From assembly GCA_037386965.1 (NCBI GenBank), contig JARRLN010000013.1, positions 1-39,569 on the forward strand: a DNA stretch of 39,569 bases, given 5' to 3'. The notes beneath the pieces are model-generated. The model was not told the origin of the DNA. It made no database searches and saw only the letters and a program-made list of their open reading frames with translations. The position numbers were made by a program, and so were the translations under genes. The DNA is from Nitrospirota bacterium (lineage in GTDB: Bacteria > Nitrospirota > Thermodesulfovibrionia > Thermodesulfovibrionales > JdFR-86). This document shows, in pieces, positions 15,257 to 39,411 of the stretch; the first letter of the stretch is position 1; every line of letters begins with the position of its first letter.

Positions 15257-15272
15257 TGGCATAGTGATTGCA
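15257..15272 (+). promoter_or_regulatory. Sigma-54 promoter upstream of a small ORF
   Basis: TGGCATAGTGATTGCA matches the TGGCACG-N4-TTGCW consensus at all defined positions except two inner ones, with GG and GC at the exact 10-base separation. The predicted transcript start (about 15283) is downstream of the first ATG (15278), which favours the ATG at 15308 for the small protein. Confidence 0.6.
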
Positions 15273-23471: not shown

Positions 23472-23984
23472 TTACCGCGGCCTGACGGTGTCCCGGAGAG
23501 AATCGTCCCGGTGCTTCGTTAAAGCGGTCCCCTTTGCCGCCCGGACCATATGCCGAAGGGCCTTTCTCAGAGTGTTCACCGCTTCCCTGAGCTCGAAAGG
23601 TTTCTCGATGACGAATACGTTATCGCCCTGGGCGACGTCGTCCTTCCGGCCGGGGGTGCGGAGGAAGAGGACCATGGTGTCCGGATGGGTCCGGCGCATC
23701 TTGTCCAGCAGGGGCAGGGCAACGGCTTCGGAAAGCACGTCGTCGATGATAACGACGTCCGGGGAGTTGGATTGCACCAGGGAGAGAGCCTCATCCTCGC
23801 CCTCGGCCAGAAAGAGGTCCTCGGCGCACTCGTCCAGGAGCTTTACGAAATAGTGTACAAGCAGAGGGTTCCTGGCCACCAGAAGGACGGAGAACTTCGG
23901 CTGCTTCCGGCAGAAGTTCTGAAACTTGCGGCGGGATATCCACGAGCGAATGTCTCTTTGAAGGTCGTATAATTCGTCCGGCAT
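23472..23984 (-). CDS. Atypical stand-alone receiver-domain protein
   Basis: A 170-residue protein: a basic, aromatic N-terminal extension (residues 1-30), then a receiver domain at about 31-145. The phosphoacceptor Asp81 in VVIIDD, Thr110 in FLRT and Lys128 in IEKPF are kept. The metal-binding acidic pair that should sit after the first strand is replaced (LLVARNP, Ala37-Arg38), so Mg-dependent phosphorylation is doubtful. No output domain follows, only a short helical tail. The 23984 start has GAGGAGG at good spacing; the longer frame lacks one. It stands alone behind two candidate promoters, one a near-consensus sigma-54 element. Confidence 0.82.
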   Translation of the reverse strand: MPDELYDLQRDIRSWISRRKFQNFCRKQPKFSVLLVARNPLLVHYFVKLLDECAEDLFLAEGEDEALSLVQSNSPDVVIIDDVLSEAVALPLLDKMRRTHPDTMVLFLRTPGRKDDVAQGDNVFVIEKPFELREAVNTLRKALRHMVRAAKGTALTKHRDDSLRDTVRPR

Positions 23985-24027
23985 AGGCTGCCTCCTCACG
24001 GTCGTCACCCGGGCAGGGCTTTTGTGT

Positions 24028-24056
24028 ACTATACACATTATAGGGCTCGATAGCAA
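24028..24056 (-). promoter_or_regulatory. Sigma-70 promoter candidate of the orphan receiver gene
   Basis: On the minus strand TTGCTA (24051-24056), a 17-base spacer and TATAGT (24028-24033). A separate TATAAT at 24039-24044 has no -35. Confidence 0.45.
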
Positions 24057-24109: not shown

Positions 24110-24125
24110 AGCAATCACGGTGCCA
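24110..24125 (-). promoter_or_regulatory. Sigma-54 promoter upstream of the orphan receiver gene
   Basis: The minus strand reads TGGCACCGTGATTGCT. It matches TGGCACG-N4-TTGCW at every defined position but one (C for G at position 7), with correct GG-N10-GC spacing. The predicted start is near 24099, giving a leader of about 115 nt before the receiver gene at 23984. Confidence 0.65.
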
Positions 24126-31310: not shown

Positions 31311-31344
31311 TTGCACAATTGCAAAACAATTTGCCCGAATGCAA
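31311..31344 (+). promoter_or_regulatory. Tandem enhancer-like dyads TTGC-N6-GCAA, 20 bp apart
   Basis: TTGCACAATTGCAA (31311-31324) and TTGCCCGAATGCAA (31331-31344) share TTGC-N6-GCAA with different centres. The dyad centres are exactly 20 bases apart, two helical turns. Relative to the start predicted from the sigma-54 element (about 31414) they lie near -96 and -76, the usual place for a NtrC-type activator. I infer they bind the regulator encoded at 34528-35892. Confidence 0.65.
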
Positions 31345-31387
31345 AGCCATAGTGCTCCTCTTTCTTTTCTTTCGCGCACTTCCGTGC

Positions 31388-31403
31388 TGGCACGGATGAT
31401 GCT
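31388..31403 (+). promoter_or_regulatory. Sigma-54 promoter of the membrane protein/cytochrome operon
   Basis: TGGCACGGATGATGCT differs from TGGCACG-N4-TTGCW at one base only. The GG-N10-GC core is exact. The predicted start at about 31414 lies 32 bases before the first gene, which has AAAGGAGG. Confidence 0.78.
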
Positions 31404-31445
31404 CCATGTATGGCAAGAGCGGACCCAAGCGAAAGGAGGCACACC

Positions 31446-31781
31446 ATGAAAGAGTCTCTGGCCACGAGAATGGGATTCATCGGGGCGGGCGTAGGGTTGG
31501 CTCTCTTTGCTGTTTTCGGACTTCTTCCGGGGGCGTTCCTCGGTGGGGTTCTGGGCCTGAACATGGCGAATCTGATTTTCGGGGCCGGGGCGGTTCCGTC
31601 GCTTCTGCCGAGGATTCTCATCGTCATCGGCATGCTGACGGGCGTGATGGTGGCGGGTCTGGTCTTCCTGGCCGCCGGAGGCGCCCTGGGATGGCTCGTC
31701 GGCCTGGCGACGGAGTCCGTAAAGGCAGCCCGGGCCCGGGCCCATGACAAGGCGGGTGGTCTTCCCGGCGAAAAGCGTTAA
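31446..31781 (+). CDS. Small membrane protein, first gene of the sigma-54 operon
   Basis: A 111-residue protein with two or three Gly/Leu/Val-rich hydrophobic segments (about 9-46 and 57-84) and a basic tail. The 31446 start has AAAGGAGG at ideal spacing; a longer frame starts inside the untranslated leader. It contains no haem site. It is related in pattern to the next gene (GLLPG near the first helix, RILI..G at the start of the second), suggesting tandem duplication. Function unknown; being led by the cytochrome operon's promoter suggests a membrane component or assembly factor of the electron-transfer complex. Confidence 0.75.
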   Translation: MKESLATRMGFIGAGVGLALFAVFGLLPGAFLGGVLGLNMANLIFGAGAVPSLLPRILIVIGMLTGVMVAGLVFLAAGGALGWLVGLATESVKAARARAHDKAGGLPGEKR

Positions 31782-31831
31782 GGGCACTTTACAATCTGCC
31801 CAAAAATAAAGAAGGTAAAGGAGGGATGCGG

Positions 31832-32179
31832 ATGAAGGAGGACAGGTTTTCCACGCTCAAGGCAGGCAGACGCGTGGGGGCCGTAGTCGGCGGGATAATT
31901 TTCGTGCTCCTGGGCATTGTTCCGGGCTTGTACTTCGGGAGCTACGCAACGGTTGTCCTGCTGTCTCATCTGACGGGGGGGCCTATCGAGACGGGGATTC
32001 TGACGCGGGCGCTTATCGCCTCGGGAATCATACTGGGACTTTTCTGCACCGCGGCGCTGAGCATCGTGGCGGGTTCCCTGGCCGGCATGGTCCTGGCCCT
32101 GGCGGGGGACGCGCTCACCTCGACCCTGTGGCCCCGGAGGAAGCAGCGGGAATCGCAAACCGCGGCCACCGTAAACTAA
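31832..32179 (+). CDS. Small membrane protein, paralogue of the preceding gene
   Basis: A 115-residue protein with a basic N terminus and two long hydrophobic regions (about 14-45 and 55-90). The alignment by eye with the previous product keeps GI/LVPG, a G-rich first helix, RALIASGIILG against RILIVIGMLTG, and a closing GSLAGMVLALAGDA against GGALGWLVGLATES. The 31832 ATG is chosen because AAGGAGG (31818-31824) is 7 bases away; the ATG at 31826 directly abuts it. No haem site. It is followed by the heptahaem cytochrome gene with AAAGGAG. Confidence 0.75.
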   Translation: MKEDRFSTLKAGRRVGAVVGGIIFVLLGIVPGLYFGSYATVVLLSHLTGGPIETGILTRALIASGIILGLFCTAALSIVAGSLAGMVLALAGDALTSTLWPRRKQRESQTAATVN

Positions 32180-32205: not shown

Positions 32206-33162
32206 ATGAAAGCCACTCATACCTTTCTTCTGATGTGCGCAGCACTTCTCCTCTTGCCCATAGTGGCCGCGGCTGGTGTGAATTCCGGGTGCATCGTCTG
32301 TCACAACGCCAGCGTCGGCACCGTCACGGGTGAGAAGGGAGAGGTGAACCTCAGGGTTGACCCCGCACGGTTCGACAGGTCCGTCCACGGGTTCCTCTCC
32401 TGCACGGACTGCCACGAGAAGTACGCCGGCAACCCTCATGCGGCACCCTCGGGGTACGTAAGCCCCGAGGTGCAGAAAATAGCGCAGGAAGTGCGGCCCA
32501 AGGCACAGGCCGACCCCGTGGCCATGGCGGCCTGCTCCAAGTGCCATCCGGAAATCTATGAGAAGGTCCTGGGCAGCGTGCACGGGGAAAATGTGGTCGA
32601 GAAAGGCAAGACGGACGGCGCCCTGTGCGTGGACTGCCATGGAAGCCCGCACTACGTGCTGGCTTCGGACGCGAGCACGTCTCCCGTCAACCGGGCCAAT
32701 GTCGTGCAGACATGCGGTACCTGTCACCGAAACGGCGGGGTCGCCGCCTCCTACGATATCGAGGGAGACGTCATGAAGACTTTCGAGGAGAGCTTCCACG
32801 GCAAGAAGCTCGCCTTGGGCCACACGGGCGCCCCCACCTGCATCAACTGCCACGGCTACCATGACGTCAAGGCCAGCGACGACCCGACCTCTCCCGTGTT
32901 CGGCGCCAACAAGATAAAGACCTGCGGCAAATGCCATGAAGGGGCCAACCAGAAGTTCGTCGCAGCCATCACGCACCAGGAAGTGGGCCCCATTCCACAT
33001 TACGCGGAGAAGGGCCTTATCCTTCTGACCATGTCCGTCATCGCCTTTACGGTAATGCACGTCATCCTGGAGGCCTATGCGGACATCAGGGACACGTTCT
33101 TCCGCAGGGTCCCGGCTGAAGCAAAAAAGAAGAAGGAGGAAGAGGAGGAGGAAACCGCATGA
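32206..33162 (+). CDS. Heptahaem cytochrome c with C-terminal membrane anchor (CbcA-like)
   Basis: A 318-residue periplasmic cytochrome. The signal peptide ends near residue 23; seven CXXCH sites follow (CIVCH, CTDCH, CSKCH, CVDCH, CGTCH, CINCH, CGKCH). Many extra His residues (SVHG, SFHG, THQEVG) could be distal ligands. A single transmembrane helix near 275-297 and a Lys/Glu-rich cytoplasmic tail end the protein. The layout of a seven-haem protein tied by its tail to the membrane, coupled by ATGA to a cytochrome b gene, matches a quinol-oxidising bc-type complex like CbcBA of Geobacter as I remember it. I infer it passes electrons from the b subunit to periplasmic carriers. Confidence 0.9.
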   Translation: MKATHTFLLMCAALLLLPIVAAAGVNSGCIVCHNASVGTVTGEKGEVNLRVDPARFDRSVHGFLSCTDCHEKYAGNPHAAPSGYVSPEVQKIAQEVRPKAQADPVAMAACSKCHPEIYEKVLGSVHGENVVEKGKTDGALCVDCHGSPHYVLASDASTSPVNRANVVQTCGTCHRNGGVAASYDIEGDVMKTFEESFHGKKLALGHTGAPTCINCHGYHDVKASDDPTSPVFGANKIKTCGKCHEGANQKFVAAITHQEVGPIPHYAEKGLILLTMSVIAFTVMHVILEAYADIRDTFFRRVPAEAKKKKEEEEEETA

Positions 33163-33875
33163 AAAACGAACAGACCGAAGTCCAGAGATTTGACATACAT
33201 TTCAGGATCCAGCACGTCGTCATGTTCACCACGTTTCTCACCCTCTCCTTCACGGGCTGGGGCCTCAAGTACGCGCAGGTGGACGTCTCCCACTGGCTCA
33301 TCCGCCTTTTCGGCGGCCCGGAGACGGCGGGCATCATCCACAGGGTGGCCGGCGTCACCATGATCGCGGATTTCACGTACCATCTCGTGTACCTGGCGTA
33401 CAGGAAGTACAAGGGGCAGCTCAGGCTCTTCCGGAAGGAAACCACGATTATCCCCCTGCCCAAGGACGTCAAGGACGTCGTCCACAACTTCCTCTACTTC
33501 CTGGGCGTCGTCAAGACGAAGCCGCAGTTCGCCAAGTTCTCCTATGCCCAGAAGTTCGACTATTGGGCGGTCTTCTGGGGCATGTTCATCATCGGATTTT
33601 CGGGATTCTGCCTGGCCTTCCCCATCTTCATGTCGACTTTCTTCCCCCAGGCCATCAGCGGCTGGGTATGGCAGCTCCTGGCCATCATGCACAGCGACGA
33701 AGCGCTCCTGGCCATCGTGTTCATCCTGTTCTGGCACTTCTACAACGAGCACCTCAAGCCGGAGGTCTTCCCGATGAGCTGGGTCTGGCTGACCGGCCGG
33801 ATACCCCTGGCGGAACTGAAGCACAAGCATCCCCTGGAGTATGAACTGCTGTACAAGGACAACAAGGAAGAGTGA
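33159..33875 (+). CDS. Membrane cytochrome b, di-haem type (CbcB-like)
   Basis: A 238-residue inner-membrane protein with four hydrophobic helices, resembling the cytochrome b561/formate-dehydrogenase gamma class. Candidate haem b ligands are His19 in RIQHVVMF, the His in IIHRVAGV, the His in DFTYHLVY, and two His in the last helix (ILFWHFYNEH). It overlaps the heptahaem gene by ATGA (33159-33162), indicating a tight complex. It would oxidise menaquinol and hand electrons to the heptahaem subunit. A KEE-rich C terminus is cytoplasmic. Confidence 0.9.
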   Translation: MKNEQTEVQRFDIHFRIQHVVMFTTFLTLSFTGWGLKYAQVDVSHWLIRLFGGPETAGIIHRVAGVTMIADFTYHLVYLAYRKYKGQLRLFRKETTIIPLPKDVKDVVHNFLYFLGVVKTKPQFAKFSYAQKFDYWAVFWGMFIIGFSGFCLAFPIFMSTFFPQAISGWVWQLLAIMHSDEALLAIVFILFWHFYNEHLKPEVFPMSWVWLTGRIPLAELKHKHPLEYELLYKDNKEE

Positions 33876-33879
33876 GGAT

Positions 33880-34416
33880 ATGACGACACTCCGCACCATA
33901 ACGGCCGCGCTCTTCGTGGTGGCCCTTCTGGCAGGATGCAACTTCCTCGCTCCCGAGGCCGAAAGCAACCACAAAGTTGCCGACGCCAAGCCGGCCGCCG
34001 AGTCCGCCGCGCCCCAGGGGGGCGTTGCCGCCCTGCCCTGCTTCGGCTGCCACCCCTATGCCGCCTTCAACGAGGCCTTCCCCCACGAGACGCACGGCTC
34101 CATGGGGCTTCACTGCACCCAGTGCCACGGGATGAAGGCCCACAAGAGCAATACCATCATCGGCGAGACCTGTAACAACTGCCATAACATGGGCGTCATG
34201 CAGATGAAGACCTCGGCCATGCCGGCCTTCTTCGACCACGCGACGCACGCGGCCATGTTCGACTGCGGGAAGTGCCACCCCGAGTCCTTCCCCATGAAGC
34301 TCAACGCGGCGGCCATCTCCATGGCCGACATCTCCCGGGGCAAGTACTGCGGCGACTGCCACAACGGCTCGGTGGCCTTCGCCTCCGACAAGTGCGACCG
34401 GTGCCACACCCGATGA
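33880..34416 (+). CDS. Hexahaem c-type cytochrome lipoprotein
   Basis: Start at 33880 (MTTLRTIT), with GAGGAT just before; the longer frame lies inside the cytochrome b gene. The 178-residue product carries a signal peptide with lipobox LLAGC (acylated Cys20), so it is membrane-tethered, probably at the outer membrane since no Asp follows the Cys. After a Lys/Ala/Pro-rich spacer come six CXXCH sites: CFGCH, CTQCH, CNNCH, CGKCH, CGDCH and CDRCH. Single His residues in HETHGSMG and DHATHAAMF are candidate distal ligands, as in c7/c3-like cytochromes. It is the last gene before a strong terminator and probably the electron acceptor of the bc-type unit. Confidence 0.9.
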   Translation: MTTLRTITAALFVVALLAGCNFLAPEAESNHKVADAKPAAESAAPQGGVAALPCFGCHPYAAFNEAFPHETHGSMGLHCTQCHGMKAHKSNTIIGETCNNCHNMGVMQMKTSAMPAFFDHATHAAMFDCGKCHPESFPMKLNAAAISMADISRGKYCGDCHNGSVAFASDKCDRCHTR

Positions 34417-34527: not shown

Positions 34528-35892
34528 TCAGCTTCCTTTCTCGACGTTGATGCCGAGCTTCTTCATCTTTCTGTACAGGGTCGCCAGGTCTATCCCCAGC
34601 TCCCGGGCCGTCTCGTCCTTGTTCCAGTCATGGTGGGCGAGGCGCTCGAGGATGAGCTTCCTCTCGTAGTAGTTCAGGGCGTCCTTGAGCCCGGCGGCGT
34701 GGGCGGCCTGGTAGGTGCGGACCTTCTCCGGGAGGTCTTCGACATAAATCTTCTCTCCCGTCGAGAGCACCACGGCACGCTCCATGGCGTTTCTCAGCTC
34801 CCGCACGTTCCCGAACCAGGGATACTCCAGGATGGTCTGCATCGCGGCCTCATCGATGCCGTCGAGCCTCTTTCCATGCTCCTCGGCGAAGCGCTCCAGG
34901 AACGTGCTGGCCACAAGGATGATGTCCTCCTTCCTCTCCCTGAGGGGCGGTATCGTCACTTCTATCACGTTCAAGCGGTAGTACAGGTCCTCCCTGAACT
35001 CCCCGCCCTTGATGGCCTCGTCCAGGTTCTTGTGGGTTGCCGCGACGATGCGCACGTCCACCGTCCGGGGGCGGGTGTCCCCCAGGGGAAGCACCTCCCC
35101 CGTCTCCAACACGTGCAGGAGCTTGGACTGAAGAGCCAGGGGCATGTCCCCTATCTCGTCGAGAAAGACCGTCCCCCCGTCGGCGGCCTCCAGGAGGCCG
35201 GGCTTATCGGCGGTAGCGCCGGTAAAAGCACCCTTCCTGTAGCCGAAAAGCTCGCTCTCCAGGAGCGTTTCGGGGATGGCGGAGCAGTTGATGGCCATGA
35301 AGGGCTTGCCGCCCCGGGGGCTGTTCTGGTGGATGATCTCCGCCAGAAGCCCCTTGCCGGTACCGCTTTCGCCGAAGATGAGGATGTTGCTCTTCGTGGA
35401 CACCACCTTCTCCACCAGGTCGAATATCTCGCGGACCTGGGGCGAATCCCCGAGGAACTTGTTGCTCCGAAGGCGGTTGCTCCGCTCCCTCCAGAGGACC
35501 TGGTTTTCCATCTCCAGCCTCCGGCCGTTCAGGGATTTCCTGATCCTGTGCTTGACCTCGTCGTTGTTGAAGGGCTTGGTGATGTAGTCGTCGGCCCCCT
35601 TCTTCATGGCGTCCACCGCGTTCTCCACGGTGGCGTACGCCGTCATGAGGATGACGATGGCGCCCGGCGAAATGTCCTTGACCCTCTCCAGAAGCTCGAT
35701 GCCGTCCATCCCTTCCATCTTGAGGTCGGTCATCACCAGTTCGAAGTCCTTTTTACGGACCTTTTCCATGGCCTCCTCTCCGCTCTCGGCGGATTCGACC
35801 TCATAGCCCTCCCTGCTCAGGAGAAATTCCAGCGCGCGGCAGATGTCGCGCTCGTCGTCCACTATCAGGATCCTGTGCGCATTATTTTTCAT
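34528..35892 (-). CDS. Sigma-54-dependent response regulator, NtrC family
   Basis: A 454-residue transcription activator. Receiver domain (1-120): acidic pair Asp12/Asp13, phosphoacceptor Asp56 in MTDLKM, Thr/Ala and Lys positions (LMTAYA, TKPF) intact. AAA+ domain (about 145-370): Walker A GESGTGKG, the sigma-54-contacting GAFTGA loop, Walker B GGTVFLDEIGD and the arginine-finger region. A Fis-type helix-turn-helix closes the protein (about 410-450, DETARELGIDLATLYRKMKKLG by position). Everything needed for phosphorylation-controlled activation of sigma-54 is present. Its start overlaps the end of the kinase gene by 11 bases; it faces the cytochrome operon, whose promoter is of sigma-54 type. 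It parallels BccR of Geobacter in context. Confidence 0.96.
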   Translation of the reverse strand: MKNNAHRILIVDDERDICRALEFLLSREGYEVESAESGEEAMEKVRKKDFELVMTDLKMEGMDGIELLERVKDISPGAIVILMTAYATVENAVDAMKKGADDYITKPFNNDEVKHRIRKSLNGRRLEMENQVLWRERSNRLRSNKFLGDSPQVREIFDLVEKVVSTKSNILIFGESGTGKGLLAEIIHQNSPRGGKPFMAINCSAIPETLLESELFGYRKGAFTGATADKPGLLEAADGGTVFLDEIGDMPLALQSKLLHVLETGEVLPLGDTRPRTVDVRIVAATHKNLDEAIKGGEFREDLYYRLNVIEVTIPPLRERKEDIILVASTFLERFAEEHGKRLDGIDEAAMQTILEYPWFGNVRELRNAMERAVVLSTGEKIYVEDLPEKVRTYQAAHAAGLKDALNYYERKLILERLAHHDWNKDETARELGIDLATLYRKMKKLGINVEKGS

Positions 35893-37930
35893 TTATAGGC
35901 AACCTCACTCGGAACGTCGACCCCTTCCCCGCCTCGCTCTCGAAGGATATGTCGCCCCCGAAGCTCCTGACGATGGTCTGGCAGACCGAGAGCCCCAGGC
36001 CGGTTCCCTTGTCCTTGGTCGTGTAGAAGGGGTCGAAAATTCTGTCGAAATCCTTCTCGTCTATGCCCTGCCCGGTGTCGCGGAAGGCGATTTCCACCTC
36101 GCCCTCGTCTGTCCCGACGACGACGGCAAGCTGCCCCCCGTCGGGCATGGCGTCGGCCGCGTTGAGGATGAGGTTCATGAATACCTGCACGAGCTGGTTG
36201 CCGTCCACCCTCACCGGCGGAAGGTCGTCCGGCCCCTCCACGGTAATGGAGATGTTCTTCGTCCGCCGGTCGTATTTTACCAGCTCCACCGTGGAGGCCA
36301 GAAGCTCCTTGATGCTCAGGTGACGGACATCTTCCATGCGTGTCTTGGTGAAGCTGGCCATGTTCTTCACGATGGCCTCTATGCGGCCGATGTGCTTGTA
36401 TATGGTGTCTATGGCCTCCGCGGTAAACTCGTCGAACTCCATGCCCTTCAGAATCTGGACATAGGAGGAGATGGAGGTCAGGGGGTTTCCGATTTCGTGG
36501 GCTACTCCCGCCGAGAGGCGCGCCAGGGCGGTGAGCTTCTCCGACTGCATGAGCTGCTCTTCGGCCTTCTTCAGCTCCGTTATGTCCTGAAGGAGCAGGA
36601 GGGTCTGGATGCGTCCGTCGGGGGAATGCAGGGGGGTCAGGGACATCTGGAAGAAGCCCTTCTTCTTCTCCGTGTTCAGGGAGACGACCTGCTGTATCAA
36701 CCGGTCCTCGACCACGGCGTTTCTGATCTCCCCCGTGATGCCGGCGTTCTGCCAGATGTCCTCCAGCGTGCCCCTCTTCAACTGCTCGTCCGAGAGCCAT
36801 CCACGCAGCACCTTGTTCATCCACACGCACGTGCCGTCCTCGTCCAGGACAGCCATCCCCGCCTCGATGGAGCCGATGACGGCATCCAGCTTCTCCTTCT
36901 CGCTTCTCAGTTCCTTCGTCCTCTCCTGCACGACGCTCTCAAGCTCCAGGGCGTAGTCCCTCACCTTATCGGCATAGGTGGCCTTGGCCTCGGCCCTTAT
37001 CCTTCTTTTGTTTATGAGGACGATGAAGAACGCTCCCGCGATGGTAGAGGCGAAAATGGCGATAACGAGCATGGACTGAAGCACCATGCTGTCGGAGATG
37101 CTGGCCGTGACTTCGGAGTACGGGATGGAGACACAGACTATCCACCCCAGGCCCTCGATGCGCGAGAAGGCGATGAGCTTGTCTTCGCCGTAGGGGGCGA
37201 TGTAGGAGCTGAAGCCCACGTTGGGAGAGTTCAGGATTTCCTTCTCGGCGTTGAAGGATGTGTGACACTGGTAACAATAGTTGTCGTGCTTGAAGATGTT
37301 CTTGCCCACCATGTCGCTCTTGGTGGGGTGGTAGACAAGGGTGCCGCGGTCGTTCATAATCCAGGCGTACCCCCGCTCCCCCGCCTGCACGGGCGTGAGG
37401 AACTTGCCGGTGATGTCGTCTATGTTGACTTCCACGAGCACGGCACCCATAAGCACGTTTTTCCCGTAGATGGGCGTAACCAGCACGAGCTTCCGCTGGT
37501 CCTCGGTATTGTCCTCCATGTAGACCTCCCCCGAAGGAAGGTCCTTCACTTGCTCAAAGCTGTTTTCCGCCTGCTCTGCCACACCCACATCCCCGGTCGA
37601 GTAAACCCGGCGGCCGTCCCCGTCGTAGAGGGTCACATGGACGTTTATCTCGTTATCGAGTTTAGACAGGGCGAAGCGGGTGTACTCATCGAGGCCCTTG
37701 GGGTCCAAGCCCCTCTGGGCCAGGAGCCCGGCCAGGGAAACGGCTTCCGTCCTCAGGTGTTCAAGGGTGTCGCCCACGGAAGAGGCCACGGTCTTGGCGA
37801 TGATGAGCTGCTGCCGGTTGATCTGGGTGGCCATCTCGGACTCGTAACTCTGGTGGAAAAAGAAGTTCAGCGTGATGACGACGCTCACGATGAGCAGAAG
37901 GACTCCGATGAGGGTTATCTTGAATCTCAT
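35882..37930 (-). CDS. Histidine kinase with a haem c site in its periplasmic Cache sensor domain
   Basis: A 682-residue inner-membrane sensor kinase. TM1 is at about 5-25, TM2 at 283-306. The periplasmic part has the double-Cache pattern (LDEYTRFALSKL, then VTLYDGDGRRVYSTGDVG; YAWIMNDRGTLVYHPTKSDMVGKNIF by position). Inserted right after it is CYQCH (Cys219, Cys222, His223), a canonical haem c attachment site on the correct side of the membrane; His201 and His215 are possible distal ligands. A PAS domain (about 345-460) leads to the HisKA domain with His478 in AHEIGNP and the ATPase domain with NLILNAADAM, DTGQGI and GTGLGL. It is coupled to the regulator gene. The leader (37931-38040) is GC-rich, with only a weak TAAAAT-type -10 near 38025. 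Confidence 0.95.
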   Translation of the reverse strand: MRFKITLIGVLLLIVSVVITLNFFFHQSYESEMATQINRQQLIIAKTVASSVGDTLEHLRTEAVSLAGLLAQRGLDPKGLDEYTRFALSKLDNEINVHVTLYDGDGRRVYSTGDVGVAEQAENSFEQVKDLPSGEVYMEDNTEDQRKLVLVTPIYGKNVLMGAVLVEVNIDDITGKFLTPVQAGERGYAWIMNDRGTLVYHPTKSDMVGKNIFKHDNYCYQCHTSFNAEKEILNSPNVGFSSYIAPYGEDKLIAFSRIEGLGWIVCVSIPYSEVTASISDSMVLQSMLVIAIFASTIAGAFFIVLINKRRIRAEAKATYADKVRDYALELESVVQERTKELRSEKEKLDAVIGSIEAGMAVLDEDGTCVWMNKVLRGWLSDEQLKRGTLEDIWQNAGITGEIRNAVVEDRLIQQVVSLNTEKKKGFFQMSLTPLHSPDGRIQTLLLLQDITELKKAEEQLMQSEKLTALARLSAGVAHEIGNPLTSISSYVQILKGMEFDEFTAEAIDTIYKHIGRIEAIVKNMASFTKTRMEDVRHLSIKELLASTVELVKYDRRTKNISITVEGPDDLPPVRVDGNQLVQVFMNLILNAADAMPDGGQLAVVVGTDEGEVEIAFRDTGQGIDEKDFDRIFDPFYTTKDKGTGLGLSVCQTIVRSFGGDISFESEAGKGSTFRVRLPINEK

Positions 37931-38973: not shown

Positions 38974-39411
38974 TCACATACCACGTTCTTCTCTCCATTT
39001 TTGTAAACCGAGCCTCAGTAATTTCAACAACCAATTGTAATCATCATCTCCCGGAAAGCCCTTCATAAAAGTTGAAGCCCGAAACTTATCTGAATATCTA
39101 TTCATTATCTCGTGGCTCTTATTAAGGAGCTCATCAATTTCTGTAAAACTTAAAGGGTTATCTTTTAGCAGTTTGTCATTTGCAAGCACAATATGTGTTC
39201 CCTTATGGGCAACGATATTATTTCTCCATATCATTAATTTCTTTACTAAAGAATTCTTGTTACTACTCGCGTATTCTATATCTTTCTCTAATTGATCTTT
39301 ACCGGGGATTCTATCGTCTTTTGCAAGAAGTTCCACAAAAGGATTATCGCTAAGCCTTTCACGGAAATGGTCAGTTTCAAAAAAATGCATATTCGCCTTG
39401 ATTGTTTCCAA
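38974..39411 (-). CDS. HEPN-like (AbiU2-type) protein, probably N-terminally truncated
   Basis: The frame encodes about 145 residues of a helical, Asn/Lys-rich protein with the motif RNNIVAHKG near residue 63, the R-X4-6-H signature of HEPN ribonuclease-like domains in toxin and abortive-infection proteins. The only upstream start is a TTG at 39411. In-frame codons before it (reading as NLYNF) look like continuation of the protein, but a TGA stops them about 11 codons further up, so the gene is likely a 5'-truncated remnant. Composition is strikingly AT-rich compared with everything to its left, pointing to transferred DNA. Confidence 0.6.
   Translation of the reverse strand: METIKANMHFFETDHFRERLSDNPFVELLAKDDRIPGKDQLEKDIEYASSNKNSLVKKLMIWRNNIVAHKGTHIVLANDKLLKDNPLSFTEIDELLNKSHEIMNRYSDKFRASTFMKGFPGDDDYNWLLKLLRLGLQKWREERGM

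Follow-up and report, generated by a model that had tools for sequence, protein, structure and literature searches.

A Predicted Sigma-54 Promoter with Helically Phased Activator Dyads ahead of Small Membrane Protein and Cytochrome Genes in Thermodesulfovibrionales

Organization of the Locus

The window, by which we mean the whole stretch of 39,569 nucleotides that was analyzed, carries a forward-strand operon predicted to encode two small membrane proteins (p1 and p2) and, downstream of these, cytochrome subunits (cytcA, cytb, and cytcB), with genes for a response regulator and its partner histidine kinase on the opposite strand (Table 1). The preliminary description of this DNA had placed a sigma-54 promoter ahead of a cytochrome operon; cytochrome genes do belong to the operon, but its first genes are those of the two small membrane proteins.

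The p1 protein has no family match in Pfam or NCBIfam. Its predicted structure is a helical hairpin (pLDDT 89), for which a fold search against the PDB gave no significant match, and homologs are found in 48 of 121 genomes. Together with p2 it represents a multi-copy family lacking a Pfam or NCBIfam model (window 31446–32179; G011 C14/C29, G060 C21/C118, G073 C4/C12). Relatives of cytb, with up to 75% identity, occur at many Nitrospirota loci.

Table 1. Features of the locus and of a related promoter elsewhere in the genome
Feature	Position	Strand	Remarks
Distal activator dyad TTGCACAATTGCAA	31311..31324	.	10/10 match to TTGCA-N4-TGCAA; center ~ -96.5
Proximal activator dyad TTGCCCGAATGCAA	31331..31344	.	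9/10 match to TTGCA-N4-TGCAA; center ~ -76.5
Place of IHF-like box (WATCAANNNNTTR)	31370..31382	+	Conserved in relatives, decayed in the window copy
Predicted sigma-54 promoter TGGCACGGATGATGCT	31388..31403	+	1 mismatch to TGGCACN5TTGCW
p1, glycine-rich membrane protein, first gene of operon	31446..31781	+	111 aa; RBS AAAGGAGG at 31432-31439
p2, small membrane protein	31826..32179	+	Distant p1 paralog (25% identity, E=8e-6)
cytcA, c-type cytochrome	32206..33162	+	7 CxxCH
cytb, cytochrome b561-type membrane subunit	33159..33875	+	PF01292
cytcB, multiheme c7-type cytochrome, apparent lipoprotein	33880..34416	+	6 CxxCH; TIGR04257
NtrC-type response regulator	34528-35892	-	Receiver, AAA+ with GAFTGA, Fis-type HTH; recognition helix IDLATLYRKMKKLG
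Partner histidine kinase	35882-37930	-	dCache sensor with CxxCH, PAS, HisKA, HATPase
C3 promoter	G000:C3:47558-47648 (L005 11558-11649)		Between a different NtrC-type gene (just upstream) and a function-unassigned gene

Architecture of the Promoter Region

The spacer ahead of p1 contains, as originally described, a sigma-54 site with a single mismatch to the consensus, preceded at about -76 and -96 by two copies of TTGC-N6-GCAA whose centers (31317.5 and 31337.5) are exactly 20 bp apart. The end of the proximal dyad lies 43 bp from the TGG of the sigma-54 site, which shows the GG (-24) and GC (-12) elements of such promoters at their fixed distance; the genome encodes one copy of rpoN. If G31390 is taken as -24, transcription would start at about 31414, some 32 nt upstream of the first-gene ATG (31446). 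In an alignment of dozens of promoters the GG, A, and TGC of the sigma-54 site are nearly invariant, and the paired dyads first read as TTGC-N6-GCAA proved real but are conserved in the refined form TTGCA-N4-TGCAA.

Copies Elsewhere in the Genome

A genome scan for paired dyads, which the preliminary description had proposed, yielded three sites in 2.54 Mb when up to two mismatches were allowed, versus none in the reversed control, and a longer pattern agreed. The two sites beyond the window (C91 and C3) share a dyad nearly identical to the proximal dyad of the window. C91 has dyads as in the window, followed 44 bp on by a sigma-54 site and then by a paralogous p1-p2 pair. At C3 a sigma-54-like site lies 42 bp from the dyads, and the function-unassigned gene downstream is followed by one for a HEAT-repeat-like protein; scored against a promoter model from whose building it had been left out, C3 reached 46 bits (E=1.5e-11).

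Conservation among Relatives

The paired pattern, with at most one mismatch, was found in 18 of 121 related genomes and in none of the control. In almost every true case a TGGCAY-type site lies 42–45 bp downstream of the dyads and is followed by a p1 gene. Matches in G098 and G108, which lack a downstream sigma-54 site, look like chance. These, like the matches in G035 and G057, were set aside as chance or unrelated, since they are not followed by a p1-type gene with a correctly placed promoter.

Since loci fetched with the pattern or the model are biased toward matching sites, we quote conservation from loci fetched through proteins alone. Among 51 p1-type first genes collected independently of the motif, by p1 protein similarity or by cytochrome b alignment, 45 are preceded by a dyad pair scoring at least 17/20, a score that was not reached once in 1,500 shuffles of upstream regions from a wider locus set. 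The arrangement recurs at dozens of loci across the Thermodesulfovibrionales (Nitrospirota), and throughout the order the dyads, their spacing, and the sigma-54 site are kept jointly while the remaining spacer has diverged; the comparison with relatives suggested at the outset thus bore out the retention of both dyads. Full synteny, running from dyads and promoter through p1, p2, cytcA, cytb, and cytcB to the regulator and kinase, is seen in G010, G109, and the Nitrospirota loci L166, L170, L172, and L174. Distant operons that encode a related cytochrome b (Desulfosporosinus, Anaeromyxobacter, Acidobacteria, Bdellovibrionales) have neither dyads nor regulator, and two genomes with p1 homologs but no regulator ortholog (G001 and G055) have no dyads ahead of p1.

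The promoter is almost always followed by p1 and usually by p2, with cytochrome genes downstream in only some copies; judged from these gene orders, the constant target of the predicted promoter is the p1/p2 pair of small membrane proteins, not the cytochromes.

The spacing between dyad centers falls into two classes, 19–21 bp at 26 and 29–31 bp at 19 of the 45 protein-fetched loci, with almost no spacings outside them. In the wider set, the distance from proximal dyad to TGG is 42–45 bp in 53 of 56 cases. Paired upstream dyads on one helix face, as expected of an NtrC-type enhancer, are thus found with centers about 20 or 30 bp apart, and because these classes are one helical turn apart, they support the helical phasing originally proposed from the single copy in the window.

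A further element, the IHF-like box, starts 17–18 bp before the TGG in most promoters when these are aligned on the sigma-54 site. With at most one mismatch to WATCAANNNNTTR, it is present in 32 of 61 promoters versus 5% of shuffles, an enrichment that does not represent a set of independent trials, since the promoters are related by descent. The window copy departs from the box at four positions even in its best match, its own paralog C91 at one; an IHF-alpha gene is present in the genome. IHF may act at the promoters of relatives. This would resemble IHF-assisted sigma-54 promoters, in which the IHF site lies between enhancer and promoter (PMC7962754), as the box does in the relatives; it differs in that the box is placed near -24, and in that most of it has been lost from the window copy.

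The Candidate Regulator

The response regulator has the domains of a group I NtrC-type activator, with GAFTGA seen in the translation. The preliminary description had chosen it as the only complete NtrC-type activator in the window; since the genome encodes some 20 further sigma-54 activators, that circumstance is weak evidence, and the assignment draws instead on synteny, on co-occurrence controlled for family, and on a conserved recognition helix. Orthologs of the regulator separate clearly from paralogs (at least 55% versus 43–52% identity). Across 61 genomes, a full promoter match occurs in 29 of 32 with an ortholog versus one of 29 without (Fisher 7e-13), and the association holds within families (within-family permutation, 1 of 20,000). 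Across 30 aligned orthologs the recognition helix hardly varies, and it is unlike those of the genome's other activators; in many families the regulator gene adjoins the target operon. These comparisons make the window regulator the best candidate for the predicted reader of the dyads.

Exceptions run in both directions. Against the assignment, a search of G005, which carries the dyads, found no regulator ortholog (the genome is 90% complete and in 300 contigs), and G032, also without an ortholog, carries a weaker promoter-like site that narrowly misses the threshold. Regulator-positive genomes without a full promoter match are G021, G024, whose match is truncated at the end of a contig, and G036, in which a pair of dyads close to such an end has no recognized sigma-54 site. 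The regulator orthologs of G069 and G090 are split or broken.

The partner kinase has a single CxxCH in its Cache domain, retained in every ortholog aligned over the site. This conservation suggests a covalently bound heme and heme-based sensing by the kinase; the signal would probably be redox state or a heme ligand.

Proposed Mechanism and Alternatives

We consider it very likely that the spacer combines an NtrC-type enhancer with a sigma-54 (RpoN) promoter and is driven by the local kinase–regulator pair. The sensor kinase would phosphorylate the response regulator, whose dimers would bind both TTGCA-N4-TGCAA dyads on one helix face and assemble into an AAA+ oligomer. The oligomer would contact sigma-54 polymerase at -24/-12 by way of a short loop, assisted in most relatives by an IHF-like bend, so that an open complex could form and p1-p2-cytcA-cytb-cytcB be transcribed. 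More tentatively, and with less than even confidence, we propose an order-wide heme-sensing sigma-54 regulon, in which a kinase with a covalent c-type heme in its Cache domain would report redox state or a heme ligand, the core output would be the undescribed p1/p2 pair, cytochrome and cytochrome-maturation genes would have been recruited in some lineages, and enhancer sites would be limited to two or three helical turns.

Enhancer and promoter could both be real and yet be served by another activator, for example the one beside C3. The genome has ample activators to choose from, the C3 copy closely follows another NtrC-type gene, and the dyads of G005 lack an accompanying ortholog. We regard this as unlikely, because it is the ortholog of the window regulator that tracks the promoter within families and adjoins the target operon in many of them, whereas the C3-adjacent regulator, one control activator, fails to do so; it is found in several promoter-negative genomes and is absent from most positive ones, and was rejected as a general reader.

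Still less probable is that the dyads are operators of the Crp/Fnr type that modulate the promoter. The Crp/Fnr-type operator TTGAT-N4-ATCAA is likewise 14 bp long, with two 5-bp half-sites flanking a 4-bp center, and cytochrome genes are typical targets of Fnr-type regulators; such operators would, however, leave the near-constant pairing at 20 or 30 bp, the fixed distance to a sigma-54 promoter, and the co-occurrence with a sigma-54 activator to be accounted for. A chance origin of both the palindromes and the adjacent sigma-54-like site might be considered from the window alone, where the counts are only mildly unusual: TTGCN6GCAA occurs twice, at these dyads alone, against 0.54 expected, with two or more in seven of 100 shuffles, and one-mismatch sigma-54 sites are as numerous as chance predicts and by themselves not significant. 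Paralogous sites, order-wide conservation, and zero control matches refute such an origin, to which we assign a negligible probability. The preferred reading remains an NtrC-type enhancer served by the window regulator.

Relation to Known Systems

A close likeness in site sequence and regulator family is to LuxO, an NtrC-family response regulator that acts at sigma-54 promoters, with two site copies in V. fischeri (PMC10162802, PMC10328515), and whose upstream activating sequence at the Vibrio qrr promoters is TTGCAWWWTGCAA (PMC10162802). The half-site TTGCA/TGCAA is shared. The LuxO site is, however, 13 bp long with a 3-bp center, whereas the aligned promoters here have 14 bp with a 4-bp center; the LuxO target is a small RNA rather than membrane and cytochrome genes, and the phylum differs. 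The window regulator was rejected as a LuxO ortholog, scoring 368 bits against the NCBIfam LuxO model, below the cut-off of 800, and its dyads were rejected as members of the LuxO regulon, since their N4 center and 14-bp length depart from the 13-bp TTGCAWWWTGCAA site.

In Desulfovibrio vulgaris the sigma-54 activator DVU3142 is encoded beside the ohcBAC octaheme cytochrome complex, which it is predicted to control (PMC4641369). Compared by gene arrangement, both systems have a sigma-54 activator gene beside membrane cytochrome genes; DVU3142 differs in being a one-component regulator with a divergent gene, whereas the gene here is convergent, and the operons are different. Geobacter CbcBA is a pair of b-type and multiheme c-type cytochromes under the sigma-54 response regulator BccR. 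This inner-membrane cytochrome transfers electrons at low potential (PMC12307469). We set it beside the window cytochromes by description; p1 and p2 are not known from CbcBA. Within the collection of papers searched, nothing turned up on CbcBA with BccR, on sigma-54 activators with cytochromes in Nitrospirota, or on Thermodesulfovibrio sensor kinases.

The design is thus that of a standard NtrC-type enhancer; what is new is the pairing of motif and regulator and the target family, and the two-class spacing is informative as a natural experiment on the workings of sigma-54 enhancers. Regulation in this mostly uncultured order has been little worked out, and the analysis offers for its respiratory genes a specific, testable motif, a promoter map, and a regulator pair, by which the regulon may be read from genomes alone. 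It also flags an unstudied membrane-protein family as the predicted constant target and points to a possible heme-based signal.

Other Observations

In G010 (L047 7832-10701), one copy of the promoter lies ahead of genes for cytochrome c maturation (ResB and CcsA-type). Promoter copies that are identical or nearly so are often found at contig ends, which suggests recent duplicates that interrupt assembly.

A HEPN AbiU2-like ORF (38974-39411, minus strand) lies near the contig end, which is AT-rich. Other sigma-54-like sites occur in the window: TGGCATAGTGATTGCA (15257-15272, plus strand) stands immediately before a small ORF, and a perfect consensus, TGGCACCGTGATTGCT (24110-24125, minus strand), precedes by about 125 bp an ORF (within 23472-24056, minus strand) that resembles a single-domain response regulator, with a palindrome, TGTGTACTATACACA, between the two.
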